From: Thermotogota bacterium
Lineage (GTDB): Bacteria; Thermotogota; Thermotogae; Thermotogales; Thermotogaceae
NCBI GenBank assembly: GCA_030550515.1
Contig: JAUQPE010000029.1
Location: 62,001 to 126,000, forward strand
Direction: 5' to 3'
Length of the DNA stretch: 64,000 nucleotides
Positions within the stretch are counted from its first letter, which is position 1. Each line of letters opens with the position of its first letter. This document shows, piece by piece, positions 11,959 through 18,006 of the stretch. The notes beneath the pieces are model-generated. The model worked only from the letters and a program-made list of their open reading frames with translations, searched no databases and was not told where the DNA came from. A program made the position numbers and the translations under genes.

Positions 11959-12731
11959 AGGTAGCCGTCTTTTACAAAGAAGAAAAAGAGAAAGAAGCGA
12001 TTTTCGTGAAGGACAAGATTTCAAAGGAACATGAGGTGGTGTTCTTCGATAGAGTCTTTGTGACACCTCCTCAGGGAACGGAGTTGGTCGTCGTCGTGGG
12101 AGGAGACGGGACCATGCTCAGGGCAGCGAGGGTGGTACCGAACGCAACTCCCCTCGTTGGATTCAAAGCCGGCAGAATAGGTTTTTTGACGTCTTACACG
12201 GTGGACGACGTGGACCGTTTCCTTGAGGACCTGCGGGACAGGAACTTCAGAGAAGAGAAAAGGTGGTTCTTGAAGGCCAAGGTGGGCGGCGACGTGGTAC
12301 TCGCTTTGAACGACGTGGTGTTGGAGAGGGACCTCAGCGGTAAGATGGTCGAGATAGAGGTTGAAGTGGAGGGGCACTCGAGCATGTGGTTCCTCGCCGA
12401 TGGGGTCGTGGTGGCGTCTCCAACAGGATCAACAGCGTATTCTCTGTCCATCGGAGGCCCCATAATATTCCCAGAGAGCGAGGTGTTGGTTGTATCCCCC
12501 ATTGCCCCGCAGTTCTTCTTCACCAGAAGTGTGGTCGTGCCGTCGTGGCTCAGGGTGGATATTCGCTGTCAGAGGGAGATAAACCTCATCGCCGACGGGA
12601 TGATGGTTGGGAAAGTGAAAAACCTCACGGTTGAGAAAGCGGAGAGGTACGTGCGGATACTCAGACCACACGGGTACGATTACGTGAAAGTGGTGAAAGA
12701 TAAACTGGGTTACGGGAGGAAGATCGAGTGA
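11955..12731 (+). CDS. nadK: NAD kinase
   Basis: Phosphorylates NAD to NADP using ATP or polyphosphate. The 258 residues carry the GGDGT motif (VVGGDGTMLRAAR, ~residue 48), GFKAGRIGFLTSY, the NDVVLERDLSGKM segment (NE/D motif) and the glycine-rich DGVVVASPTGSTAYSLSIGGPI. The GTG start overlaps the yggT stop (GTGTGA), and the end overlaps phoU (GTGA). Confidence 0.95.
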   Translation: MKVAVFYKEEKEKEAIFVKDKISKEHEVVFFDRVFVTPPQGTELVVVVGGDGTMLRAARVVPNATPLVGFKAGRIGFLTSYTVDDVDRFLEDLRDRNFREEKRWFLKAKVGGDVVLALNDVVLERDLSGKMVEIEVEVEGHSSMWFLADGVVVASPTGSTAYSLSIGGPIIFPESEVLVVSPIAPQFFFTRSVVVPSWLRVDIRCQREINLIADGMMVGKVKNLTVEKAERYVRILRPHGYDYVKVVKDKLGYGRKIE

Positions 12732-13435
12732 ATCCCGATCTGGTTCAGAGAGTGGAAGAATTCAAGAAAGGCGTTTTAAAGGCGGGTTGGTTTGTCGAGA
12801 AGATGTTCCACAACTCCATATCCTCCCTCATCGAGAGGAACCAGTCCCTCGCCAGGGAAGTGATCGCGGATGAAGAAGTGGTGGACCAGATGGAGGTAGA
12901 GATACACGAAAAGGCCATGGAGATATTGGGGCTTTACTCTCCCATAGGTTCCCCTCTCTTGACCGTCACAACGGGCATCAGGGTCGCCGAGCTCATAGAG
13001 AACATAGGAGACAGGTGTTTCGACATCTCGAAAAACGTGTTGGAACTCTTGGAGGAGCCCCCCCTCAAACCCCTCGAGGACATCCCCCTCATGGCGAACC
13101 AGACTTCGGAGATGTTGAGGTTTGCCCTCCGCATGTTCGCCGACGTGAACACGCAGAAAGCGTTCGAGGTGTGCAGGATGGACTCGATCGTGGACGACCT
13201 GTACGAGAAGGTCCGCGAAGAGTTGCTTCTCTACATGATGGAGTCCCCGAAGTACGTTAAGAGGGCCCTCTTACTTCTCGAGATAGCGGGGCACATAGAA
13301 GCCGTGGCGGATCTTGCGACGAACATAGTGGAAGTTTCCGTCTACATGGTGGAAGGAGAAAGTTACAAATGTTACCACGACGACCTCCTCCTCTTCAGAA
13401 AATCCGGAGGTGTGCTCTTTGAGAGTTCTGATTGA
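12728..13435 (+). CDS. phoU: PhoU-domain protein
   Basis: 235 residues forming two three-helix PhoU repeats. Acidic metal-binding motifs are visible in ADEEVVDQMEVEIHEKA and CRMDSIVDDLYEKVREEL (E/DxxxD patterns), and RVAELIENIGDRCFDISKN and EIAGHIEAVADLATNIVE are the paired ExxxR/GD-type helices. PhoU proteins dampen phosphate import through PhoR/Pst. No pst or phoBR gene is nearby, so its regulatory partner is not evident. GTG start by GTGA overlap with nadK. Confidence 0.9.
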   Translation: MNPDLVQRVEEFKKGVLKAGWFVEKMFHNSISSLIERNQSLAREVIADEEVVDQMEVEIHEKAMEILGLYSPIGSPLLTVTTGIRVAELIENIGDRCFDISKNVLELLEEPPLKPLEDIPLMANQTSEMLRFALRMFADVNTQKAFEVCRMDSIVDDLYEKVREELLLYMMESPKYVKRALLLLEIAGHIEAVADLATNIVEVSVYMVEGESYKCYHDDLLLFRKSGGVLFESSD

Positions 13436-16400
13436 GTACGTGCTGAGACTTTCTGCCCTACCCTTTCTCGTCGGAATCGCCGGGTTCGTCATCTTCGTGA
13501 GTGTGGAGGTGCTCTACCAGCTCTCAGACCTGATCGTGAGGCACCGTGTTGGGATAGAGAAGCTCTTCCTTCTGCTCTACTACTACACCCCTTACTTCGT
13601 GACTATGGGGATACCGGTAGGGGTACTCCTCGCCATCTTCTGGACGATCTCCAAACTGCATGAAGGGCGAGAACTGATGGCTCTGCAGGTCCATGGGGTT
13701 TCTCAGAAGAGCCTCATAGTGCCTTTCCTCGTTCTGGGTGCCGTTCTTTCCGTAGGCGCTTACCTCTTGAGCGACAGCATCGTACCAAAGTCGAACTCGA
13801 AAGCTGAAGAGGTCTTGGCGCAGTTCGTCCTCAAAAAACCCCAGGTCTTCGTTGTGGAAAACGTTCTGACGAAGCTGGGTGAAAACCAGTACCTGTACGT
13901 CGAAAAGTACGACGAGAAAAGGGAAATCTTTCTGAACGTCGTTCTGTTCAGGTACGGCGAGGAGGAAGAGATAATAACGGCCCGAAGGGTGGAAAAGAGG
14001 GGAAACAAGTGGTACCTGTGTGACGGAAAGTTCTACTCCGTGGACAAGGAGGGTTTTTTGAAGCTCGACGTCAAATTCAACGAGATGGAGTTCGACCTCA
14101 AGGAAGATTTGGAGACGCTCGTCAGGGTTGGAAAAACTCCAAGGGAGATGACCGGTAAGGAACTCAAAAGGCGCATTCAGATGCTCAAGAGAGTCGGTAT
14201 AGATCCCGCCCCGTGGATCGTGGAACTGCAGGGACGTCACGCCAACGCGCTTGCACCCATGATCATAGTCTTGGTAGGGATCCCGATCTCGCTCCTCTTG
14301 AACTTCAGGAGCAAGTCTTGGGGGGTGATTTTCACCTTCATTTTGGTGGTGTTGTACCAAGGCAGCGGTGCTTGGTTGAGCGCGATGGGAAAGGAGCGAC
14401 TGCTTACCCCATCTCTGGCTCCTTGGATCCCCAACATTGTGTTTTCGGGAATAGGTGGGATTCTCTTTCTCATACTCGACACCTCCTCCGCTCAAAGGAT
14501 CAGGGAAAAGTTTGGAAGGTTTTTCATCGTCCTTCTGGTTCTTTTATCATCGCAGCTTTTCGGTGCAGAAATCAAGACGATTTCGGACGAGGTCTTCAAG
14601 ACCCAATCACGGCTTGTCCTGCAAGGTAACGTCATCTTGACTCAGGAAGACACCACCGTAACTGCGGACAGAGTCGTTTTGGACCTGAGCGAAGAGGGGA
14701 AAGTTCGGCTCTTGACCGCCGAAGGGAGGGTGACGTACAGGAAAGAAGACGTACTACTTTCTTGCGAGAAACTCGTACTCTCCTTTAAGGAGAAGAAGGC
14801 ACTCCTCTACAGGGTCAGAGGCACGAAAGAGTTGACAGTTTCTGACGAAAAGAAGCGCATCTTTATTTCCGGAGAAGAGATGGAAATGACAGAGGAAAAG
14901 ACTCTGGCGGAACTTGCGACTTTCACGACTTGTTCGCTGGAAAAACCTCATTACAAAGTGAAAGCGAGGAAGATTGAGATACAGGAAAACGAGTACCTCT
15001 TGGCCCAGGATGTCGTGTTCTACATCTTGGACATCCCCGTGTTCTACCAACCCGTCTTTTTCTCCTCCCTCTCCGAAAGAGAGCAACCTTTCTCCTTAGC
15101 CGCACAATTCGGAAGAGATGGTTGGATGGTGGAGAGCGTGTACAGGGTTTACTATCAAAGTGGAAAGCTAACGTTCTCGACCAAGCTTTCCCAAAGCGGA
15201 GAAACCAGGAGAATCTTCTTGTTGGAACACGAAGGAAAGGGTTTCACCGCGAGCTTAAACAGAGAAGAAGGACTGGGAGAGGGAAGTGTTTCGGTCGATG
15301 TGAAAACGGCCGATGGTTTGAGAGTTTTCTTTTCCCAAAAGGATTTGGAGAGGGTGTATCTCCTTTCGAAAACCCAGAGCGTCTCGGGTGGAAGGGTCAC
15401 GATCTCGCTCCAGAAGAAAGATCTGGGAGGGAAAGACTCGTACGAGCTTCCAAACCTTTCGCTCAAGAACGTTGCTCTACGGACTAACTTGGGGACGCTC
15501 TCGGTGCAGAACGTTCAGTACCTCGGTGAACTCAAAGAAGGGGTCTATTCAGGTAAAGGGACCGCGTCCTCTTCCTTCCTTTCGAAGCCATTCCTTTTTT
15601 TCGACAGTTTCAAATCTTCTTTGAACACATCTTTTCAGCTCCAAAGCATCGATTCGAGTGCCTCTTATCGTCTGTTGCTCGACAACGTCTTGGACGTGAA
15701 GAACGTTAAGCTGGGAAGGTATTTCTCCTTGGACGATAAGTTGTACGGAGGTCTCTTCTTCTCCGAAGAGAAGTTCGGCTACAGGCTAGGAAACCTCACG
15801 ACGAGCACCCTTTCGATCCCGCTGAAGCCGTTTTCGTTCAACCTGAGCCACAAACTGTTTCTTATGGTCGGAGAAAACGTCGACCCTTTCACGCAGAACA
15901 GGCTAGAAAACGAACTCTTGATGAGAGCGATGTACGACTCTGGAAACTTCAAAGTCTCTATCGAAAGCTCTTACGATTTTTTGAAAGACACGCTTTCTGA
16001 TCCCATCTTGAGAACCTCCCAGCACTTTTCTCTGGGAGGATGGAAACACACCGTGGAGACGGTTACGAGATTCGATCTGGATGAGCCACGTGGGAGTCAA
16101 ACTACTTGGAGTTTCACACAAAGGTGGAACGCCCTGACGAACAAGTTTTCGATAACCTTGAGTTGCGCGGAACCGTACGTTCAAACCGTCGAAGATACCC
16201 TCAGAATATACGGAAGAGACTTCTTCTTCATGAGGGATCCAAACATCACGGCCCATCTCAAGTTCAACGTGACGACCTTGGAGCTCGAGAGCTTGAAAGT
16301 GGAAGGGAGCTTCTTCAAAGATGATGCCAAGAACGTCTTGAAATTTGACGCCACACCTAAAAGTATCGAATTTTCCTACAGTTTGTCGCAGAGCGATCCG

Positions 16401-16625
16401 GAAATCGAGGTTTCAGCGAATTTTGAGAAGGAAGTTGAATGGAAACTCAACAGGATGACTTTTGCTCTCAAAAAAGATCTCCATTGTCTTGGGGCAAAGT
16501 TTTCTTTGTCCTTCGGAAAGGGCTTCACCCTTGAGGCTTTTTCGATCAGCTTTTACATCAGGGATTTTCCAGACAAGGTGTTGAATTTCGGAAGCGGGGA
16601 GACGGTGGGATTGAGCCTTTTCTGA
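13419..16625 (+). CDS. Fusion: LptF/G permease, OstA/LptA domain, LptD-like beta-barrel region
   Basis: A 1068-residue chain with three parts. Residues 1-~355 are a YjgP/YjgQ (LptF/G) permease with membrane helices at each end and a periplasmic domain between (GIPVGVLLAIFWTISKLHEGRE; then LAPMIIVLVGIPISLLLNF). Residues ~362-383 form a second signal-peptide-like segment (FGRFFIVLLVLLSSQLFGA). Residues ~385-500 are an OstA/LptA-type repeat fold (RLVLQGNVILTQEDTTVTADRVVL). The remaining ~560 residues alternate polar and hydrophobic like an outer-membrane barrel and end in Phe (GETVGLSLF), as barrel proteins do. No in-frame start codon lies at the junction, so it is one translated chain. TTG 13419 follows GGAGGTG; GTG 13410 is possible. 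Probably transports an envelope lipid or glycan across to the toga. Confidence 0.85.
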   Translation: MRVLIEYVLRLSALPFLVGIAGFVIFVSVEVLYQLSDLIVRHRVGIEKLFLLLYYYTPYFVTMGIPVGVLLAIFWTISKLHEGRELMALQVHGVSQKSLIVPFLVLGAVLSVGAYLLSDSIVPKSNSKAEEVLAQFVLKKPQVFVVENVLTKLGENQYLYVEKYDEKREIFLNVVLFRYGEEEEIITARRVEKRGNKWYLCDGKFYSVDKEGFLKLDVKFNEMEFDLKEDLETLVRVGKTPREMTGKELKRRIQMLKRVGIDPAPWIVELQGRHANALAPMIIVLVGIPISLLLNFRSKSWGVIFTFILVVLYQGSGAWLSAMGKERLLTPSLAPWIPNIVFSGIGGILFLILDTSSAQRIREKFGRFFIVLLVLLSSQLFGAEIKTISDEVFKTQSRLVLQGNVILTQEDTTVTADRVVLDLSEEGKVRLLTAEGRVTYRKEDVLLSCEKLVLSFKEKKALLYRVRGTKELTVSDEKKRIFISGEEMEMTEEKTLAELATFTTCSLEKPHYKVKARKIEIQENEYLLAQDVVFYILDIPVFYQPVFFSSLSEREQPFSLAAQFGRDGWMVESVYRVYYQSGKLTFSTKLSQSGETRRIFLLEHEGKGFTASLNREEGLGEGSVSVDVKTADGLRVFFSQKDLERVYLLSKTQSVSGGRVTISLQKKDLGGKDSYELPNLSLKNVALRTNLGTLSVQNVQYLGELKEGVYSGKGTASSSFLSKPFLFFDSFKSSLNTSFQLQSIDSSASYRLLLDNVLDVKNVKLGRYFSLDDKLYGGLFFSEEKFGYRLGNLTTSTLSIPLKPFSFNLSHKLFLMVGENVDPFTQNRLENELLMRAMYDSGNFKVSIESSYDFLKDTLSDPILRTSQHFSLGGWKHTVETVTRFDLDEPRGSQTTWSFTQRWNALTNKFSITLSCAEPYVQTVEDTLRIYGRDFFFMRDPNITAHLKFNVTTLELESLKVEGSFFKDDAKNVLKFDATPKSIEFSYSLSQSDPEIEVSANFEKEVEWKLNRMTFALKKDLHCLGAKFSLSFGKGFTLEAFSISFYIRDFPDKVLNFGSGETVGLSLF

Positions 16626-16641: not shown

Positions 16642-18006
16642 ATGAGAGTTCCTCCTCACAATTTGGAAGCGGAAGTTGCCGTTCTTGGGAGCGTATTGAT
16701 AGATCCCTCCGTGATCAACGATGTCATGGAGGTGATAAGCCACGAAGACTTCTACTTGAAGAAACACCAGTACATATTCCAGGCTATGGAGGCCCTCTAC
16801 GATGAGGGCAAGCCAATAGACGTTGTGGCCGTCTGCGACAAGTTGAAATCCATGGGGAAGCTCGAAGAGGTGGGAGGCGAGATCGAGGTCGTCAAACTTG
16901 CCGATGCTGTGCCGAGTTCCGCACACGCCGTGTACTACGCCGAGATAGTAAAAGAAAAGGCGATCCTTCGAAGGCTAATAGAAGTTTCGAGAAAGATATC
17001 GGAGAACGCGTACATGGAAGGGGATGTGGACGAACTACTGGATGAAGCAGAGAAGATGATATTTGAGATATCGGAGATGAAGACCACAAAGTCTTACGAT
17101 CACATGAGGAACATCATGCACCAAGTTTTTGAGAACCTGGAGAGTTTTCGAGAGAGGGTGAACGTGATAGAACCCGGGGTGCTCGTGACGGGTCTTCCCA
17201 CTGGTTTCAAGAGTTTGGACAAGCAGACCACGGGATTCCACAAGTCAGATTTCGTCATAATCGCCGCGAGGCCTTCGATGGGAAAGACCTCCTTTGCGCT
17301 TTCGATTGCCAGGAACATGGCCGTGAACTACGAGATACCTGTAGGGATTTTCAGCCTCGAGATGTCCAGGGAACAACTCGCCCAGCGTCTCTTGAGCATG
17401 GAGTCTGGTGTTGACCTTTACAACATCAGGACGGGCTTTTTGACGTCGGAAGAATGGGAAAGGCTCACCGTTGCGGCCTCGAGACTCTACAAAGCCCCCA
17501 TCATTGTGGACGACGAAACGTTGCTCGACCCGAGGACTCTCAGGGCAAAGGCGAGGAGGATGAAGAGGGAGTACGGCGTGGAAGTCATACTCGTTGATTA
17601 CCTGCAGCTGATGCACCTGAGGGGGCAGAAGGAGAGCAGACAACAGGAGATATCGGAGATATCGAGATCCCTGAAACTGTTGGCGAGAGAGCTAGATATA
17701 GTAGTCATCGCCCTCTCCCAACTCTCCAGGGCGGTTGAACAGCGCGAAGACAAACGTCCTAGGCTCAGCGACTTGAGGGAATCCGGTGCCATCGAACAGG
17801 ATGCCGATACGGTGATATTCATATACAGGGAGGAATACTACAAGAGCAAAAAGGAGAAGGGAGAGAGCAGGATCCACGAACCACACGAGGCGGAGATCAT
17901 AATAGGGAAACAGAGGAACGGCCCCGTCGGGACTATAATTCTGATATTCAACCCAAAGACCGTGACCTTCTACGAACCGGACTACGTGCATGATAAAATT
18001 CTCTGA
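16642..18006 (+). CDS. dnaB: Replicative DNA helicase DnaB
   Basis: 454 residues. The N-terminal primase-interacting domain (RVPPHNLEAEVAVLGSVLID, residues 2-110) is followed by a linker and the RecA-like motor. Walker A is ARPSMGKTSFALSIARN (~residue 213), Walker B is VEVILVDYLQLM, and the DnaB signatures SLEMSREQLAQRLLSM and ALSQLSRAVEQREDKRPRLSDLRESGAIEQDAD are complete. The ATG follows GAGGTGAGAGG. It sits between the Lpt fusion gene and the nucleoside phosphorylase gene. No intein is present. Confidence 0.97.
   Translation: MRVPPHNLEAEVAVLGSVLIDPSVINDVMEVISHEDFYLKKHQYIFQAMEALYDEGKPIDVVAVCDKLKSMGKLEEVGGEIEVVKLADAVPSSAHAVYYAEIVKEKAILRRLIEVSRKISENAYMEGDVDELLDEAEKMIFEISEMKTTKSYDHMRNIMHQVFENLESFRERVNVIEPGVLVTGLPTGFKSLDKQTTGFHKSDFVIIAARPSMGKTSFALSIARNMAVNYEIPVGIFSLEMSREQLAQRLLSMESGVDLYNIRTGFLTSEEWERLTVAASRLYKAPIIVDDETLLDPRTLRAKARRMKREYGVEVILVDYLQLMHLRGQKESRQQEISEISRSLKLLARELDIVVIALSQLSRAVEQREDKRPRLSDLRESGAIEQDADTVIFIYREEYYKSKKEKGESRIHEPHEAEIIIGKQRNGPVGTIILIFNPKTVTFYEPDYVHDKIL

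Follow-up and report, generated by a model that had tools for sequence, protein, structure and literature searches.

The closest described counterpart of the locus analyzed here is the lipopolysaccharide (LPS) transport system of Proteobacteria (LptB2FG, LptA and LptDE), with which it has in common the permease fold, the LptB ATPase, the LptA jellyroll, the LptD jellyroll-plus-barrel and an N-to-C-terminal cysteine pair. In the 64,000-nucleotide stretch of Thermotogota DNA under study (the window, G000:C6:62001-126000, G000 being its own genome of 1.6 Mb), however, the permease and LptD lie on one chain, and a single permease gene stands for LptF plus LptG; moreover, LpxC, the committed enzyme of lipid A synthesis, is absent, LptC was not identified, and neither was LptE, for which no search was made. 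The lptFG-lptD fusion gene, whose product is the only such protein encoded in its genome, extends from 13419 to 16625 on the forward strand, on which all other window features described below also lie, and comprises 1068 codons plus a stop codon (16623-16625), with a TTG start (an alternative GTG start is at 13410) and a 1068-aa product with the C-terminal end ...GLSLF. The open reading frame, the Pfam matches and the comparison of 76 orthologues (the window plus 75 further full-length fused ones) all bear out the first-pass annotation, made from the window alone, which had read a permease and an LptD-like part ending in Phe as a single 1068-residue chain. That observation was confirmed and its interpretation supported and sharpened, the favored reading being a polyprotein that would yield an inner-membrane permease and an outer-membrane LptD for the export of a non-LPS lipid (probability about 0.78).

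The first module (residues 1-353; 13419..14477) is an LptF/G-type permease. It matches the Pfam family PF03739 (LptF_LptG) at residues 7-351 with an E value of 1.3e-78 and 265 bits, above the curated cut-off of 27.9, and the AlphaFold2 model of the full chain contains six transmembrane (TM) helices, TM3 and TM4 being separated by a periplasmic beta domain. In Foldseek searches the permease part matched LptG/LptF (E 4.5e-15), and it is about equally distant from the NCBIfam LptF and LptG equivalogs, TIGR04407 and TIGR04408. A two-gene LptF plus LptG heterodimer was not found, nearly all Thermotogota having a single permease gene per genome, and only G005 having two.

The second half of the chain is LptD, a jellyroll plus a barrel. 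Its N-terminal beta-jellyroll (residues 385-550; 14571..15068), a 12-strand region in the AlphaFold2 model, contains a Pfam LptD_N/OstA match (PF03968) at residues 389-442 (E 1.8e-7), and a profile built from 46 of these C-terminal modules matched the LptD chains 7omm and 8h1r of the PDB (E 2.4e-6 and 9e-6), in an alignment that covers the jellyroll and the beginning of the barrel and includes the cysteine of the TTC motif. The LptD-like beta-barrel (residues 558-1068; 15090..16622), which ends in Phe, is assigned from the model, from Foldseek and from a conserved cysteine. In agreement with the beta barrel proposed earlier for the C-terminal region, the model of the C-terminal module alone was all-beta, with a mean predicted local distance difference test score (pLDDT) of 90.3 and a predicted template modeling score (pTM) of 0.64, and all of its top 15 Foldseek matches were LptD, with E values down to 1e-19. 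For the full chain the mean pLDDT was 85.5 and the top matches were LptD (6e-22) and then LptG/LptF; the pTM of 0.47 is low, and hence the relative placement of the modules is not predicted. Some results count against these assignments: the template modeling scores of the C-terminal module against full-length LptD were only 0.33-0.48, the cut-off of the LptD equivalog NF002997 was missed (40.6 bits versus 683), and so were those of TIGR04407 and TIGR04408 (125 and 130 bits versus 230 and 240). The identities of the two modules and their conserved fusion are nevertheless solid.

LptD carries an inter-domain disulfide, and the cysteines of the C-terminal module are compatible with such a bond. 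Cys505, in the TTC..PHY motif of the jellyroll (14931-14933), is invariant in 76/76 orthologues, the cysteine of the C-terminal LHC(W) motif (residue 1023; 16485-16487) is present in 64/76, and many orthologues have exactly two cysteines in this module. The first-pass annotation was right to see an OstA-type jellyroll here, although it is the N-terminal jellyroll of LptD; a fused LptA was ruled out, since the genome has a separate LptA and the fused part matches LptD. About 33 strands were counted in the modeled barrel region of the window versus the 26 known for LptD, the strand number being unsure, and in family f9 (L060, L059, L061 and L062) the C-terminal modules are about 350 aa longer than that of the window, the extra length consisting of many small insertions spread over the barrel region, which suggests a larger barrel or long loops. 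In family f7 (L052 and L053) the predicted cut site is separated from the jellyroll by a Pro/Thr-rich stretch, which is 44 aa long in L052.

In two phyla, Thermotogota and Bipolaricaulota, the fused gene is the usual form and occurs in single copy. PF03739 was detected in 100 of 103 Thermotogota genomes, almost always in one gene, and 89 of these 100 best matches fall in frames of at least 900 aa; in Bipolaricaulota the permease is present in 90 of 100 genomes, with 76 of the 90 in frames of that size. A scan of named genomes, with narrow search patterns, found the same fusion in Bipolaricaulota/Acetothermia and turned up none in phyla beyond these two. Among the control genomes, that of Thermotoga maritima was positive for PF03739, PF03968 and TIGR04406. 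The shorter Thermotogota cases that were inspected are several contig ends, broken copies (G093 and G041) and true splits (G005 and G054). In L036 (G093) and L067 (G041, Marinitoga lauensis) the fusion gene is interrupted by frameshifts or stops, through either sequencing error or decay. Such frameshifts, and the nearly contiguous neighboring genes of a few relatives, are what a sequencing or annotation artefact merging two genes might produce; however, the 75 additional orthologues that are fused and full-length rule it out for practical purposes, since they come from many independent assemblies, several of which consist of one or two contigs.

The C terminus of LptF/G is cytoplasmic, and therefore a seventh segment, oriented N-in/C-out, is needed to bring the remainder of the chain into the periplasm. 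Residues 356-382 (14484..14564) look like an internal signal peptide, with a basic n-region, a short hydrophobic core and a c-region ending in SSQLFG. The first-pass annotation had recognized this segment and an LFGA-E junction; the segment stands, but the site scored best by matrix, LFG/AE (residues 380-384; 14556..14570; the slash marks the cut), lies one residue earlier, with 6.7 bits and a motif common to LptA signal peptides, so that the predicted signal peptidase I cut would fall after residue 382, or after 383. In the full-chain model, a helix at 356-377 overlaps a stretch with pLDDT <50 at 373-382. The junction retains the character of a signal peptide in all 76 orthologues: the n-region is net-positive in 76/76, and the junction core is 90% hydrophobic yet only 22% identical in pairwise comparison, versus 51-80% for TM1, TM5 and TM6. 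Its median length is 14, versus 16 for LptA signal peptides, 29 for TM1 and 19 for TM3, but a TM5 control fragment gave 10, and core length alone is therefore not decisive. The junction aligns with LptA over residues 4-106 of the latter, a range that includes its signal peptide, and Bipolaricaulota junctions carry canonical AxA-type sites (AWA/QE, GWA/QE, GFA/QD and similar).

The signal peptidase matrix was trained on known E. coli signal peptides, and with it even the genuine signal peptides of Thermotogota LptA reach a score of only 1.0; its poor separation is due to the fact that Thermotogota signal peptides, including those of LptA, differ from those of E. coli. It was replaced by an LptA-derived motif with permease helices as controls, and this motif was found in 51/76 junctions versus 10, 19 and 0 of 76 at TM1, TM3 and TM5, respectively. 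Several observations speak against cleavage: the median junction scores 2.4 bits with the E. coli matrix versus about 12 for the training set, cut sites are non-canonical in some Thermotogota, where Phe is common at -2, a few junctions are without a good cut site, and the TM3 control partly overlaps the junction in the motif test. The last but one of these would suit an uncut chain, in which the junction forms TM7 and the jellyroll an LptC-like tethered domain, giving a covalent trans-envelope exporter that locks the permease to the pore. LptC likewise consists of a single N-in TM helix followed by a jellyroll, and a separate LptC could not be established: the PF06835 matches are to LptA or to an NfeD-like protein of 160 aa. 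Nevertheless, the short, signal-peptide-like and loosely constrained core and the AxA sites of Bipolaricaulota argue against this arrangement, as does the fact that the linker between helix and jellyroll is almost nil and yet a separate LptA persists, which implies that there is a gap to bridge. An uncut chain is accordingly judged unlikely.

Natural splits point in the same direction. In at least three of them (G005, G054 and G155) the genes part exactly at the junction, and LptD has a signal peptide of its own. G005 has two tandem permeases, both ending just after TM6; its LptD, of 849 aa, is encoded at another place, starts with a signal sequence and keeps the TTC..PHY and LHCW motifs. In G054 the permease ends in ...KRLLG and a stop, and four bases on an ATG opens an LptD that starts ...SGTKVFS/AT; G155, of Bipolaricaulota, has a similar layout with a GTG start, and G154 resembles both, its LptD being unconfirmed by profile. 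In trees, both permeases and the LptD of G005 group with fused f7 relatives, on long branches, and a relic of an unfused ancestor was therefore rejected; judging from these trees, the G005 split is more likely a later fission. In G005, moreover, three consecutive OstA-type matches occur in one 603-aa protein (L123:4297-6105), which appears to be a long LptA. Because these genomes manage with two separate chains, cleavage is favored in the fused forms, so that the junction of the window is probably cut by signal peptidase I. The earlier annotation had left open whether the chain is cut or spans both membranes; junction features and split genes favor cutting, and the orthologue search for split and fused forms that it had suggested has now yielded both.

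The viability of separate starts in the split relatives also raises the possibility that LptD is made on its own, either from an internal start or after termination and re-initiation, the open frame being a mere fused reading frame. Some in-frame ATG, GTG or TTG does occur near the n-region in 57/76 orthologues, but the window and 18 other orthologues have none there, and the frame is unbroken by a stop in the great majority of genomes. From D354, where TM6 ends, to the hydrophobic core the window has no in-frame ATG, GTG or TTG, as had been noted earlier, and separate synthesis of LptD appears very improbable.

The partners needed by such a machine are encoded elsewhere in the genomes. LptB (TIGR04406) was found above cut-off in 98/103 Thermotogota, its copy in the window's own genome being at G000:C9:6328-7026, and LptA was found in most genomes, with a 205-aa copy of its own at G000:C25:83869-84483. 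Omp85 is present in 88/103 Thermotogota, and signal peptidase I in the window's own genome. Of the two genes for which a search had been suggested, lptB was thus found and lptC was not established. The lptB gene is located directly downstream of a gene for an OmpH/Skp-like periplasmic chaperone (L125:5813-7026, G000:C9), an order that looks alike in G092 (L232). The gene immediately upstream of lptA encodes a long coiled-coil protein whose N terminus resembles a signal peptide and which may be an Omp-alpha-like anchor (L231:2631-4484, G000:C25).

LpxC was detected in 0/103 Thermotogota and 0/8 Bipolaricaulota, which fits the earlier suggestion that the cargo is not classical LPS; a published Acetothermia genome is also without LPS genes (PMC6092417). 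A phylum without LpxC might have retained these parts for some other task, e.g. protein or polysaccharide export, and no longer move lipids to the outer membrane. This is quite improbable, however, since the whole LptB-LptF/G-LptA-LptD path is kept phylum-wide beside Omp85, lptB and lptA adjoin the genes of OmpH/Skp and of a long coiled-coil envelope protein, respectively, and T. maritima contains glycolipids, in the form of glucosyl and diglucosyl lipids (PMC8788747; PMC10353723). The cargo is most likely a non-LPS lipid, a glycolipid of the toga outer membrane, for which lipids of this T. maritima type are the likeliest candidates.

From these data the following sequence of events can be proposed. 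The first half of the chain would become an LptF/G permease of the inner membrane, its N and C termini both cytoplasmic, and would associate as a homodimer with LptB2. Serving as an N-in/C-out internal signal peptide, the segment that follows TM6 would send the second half through Sec, and a signal peptidase I cut after about residue 382 would free LptD. The freed LptD would fold, in most species with an N-to-C-terminal disulfide, and be inserted in the outer membrane by BamA, whereas the separate LptA would bridge permease and LptD in a machine that exports the putative glycolipid. The two partners would be made in equal amounts, as had been proposed, but this equality would apply to their synthesis only.

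The fusion gene is flanked by phoU (12728..13435; PF01895), which is upstream and overlaps its start, and by dnaB (16642..18006; PF03796), which is downstream.

Other described systems share single traits with this one. The reduced Lpt cluster of diderm Firmicutes (Negativicutes and Halanaerobiales; PMC5007114) likewise has a single LptF/G, LptB and OstA-domain proteins, but those bacteria are LPS producers in which LptD was not found, whereas here LptD is part of the permease gene and there is no LpxC. The Lpt system of Borrelia burgdorferi is similar in serving an LPS-less diderm, with a glycolipid proposed as cargo; the paper describing it cites Lpt orthologues in T. maritima and does not mention the fusion (PMC10353723). 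A 2022 survey reported that Thermotogae are without nearly all outer-membrane genes except bamA (PMC8871954); in contrast, LptB, LptF/G, LptA and LptD are found phylum-wide here, with LptD inside the permease gene. No earlier description of the fusion, and nothing on the T. maritima locus TM1735, was found in the literature searched, a search that was incomplete, so that an earlier mention is possible. The inner- and outer-membrane ends of the Lpt machine are encoded in one gene in two phyla apparently without lipid A synthesis, which makes it possible to test what Lpt carries in the absence of LPS, whether the halves of a single bacterial polypeptide are delivered to two membranes, and whether an Lpt system that includes LptD is an old diderm feature. 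As for the internal cut, the FbcH cytochrome b/c1 precursor of Bradyrhizobium is also a polyprotein, in which an integral membrane protein is followed by an internal signal peptide that signal peptidase cleaves; both FbcH products stay in one inner-membrane complex, whereas those of the lptFG-lptD gene would belong in two different membranes.

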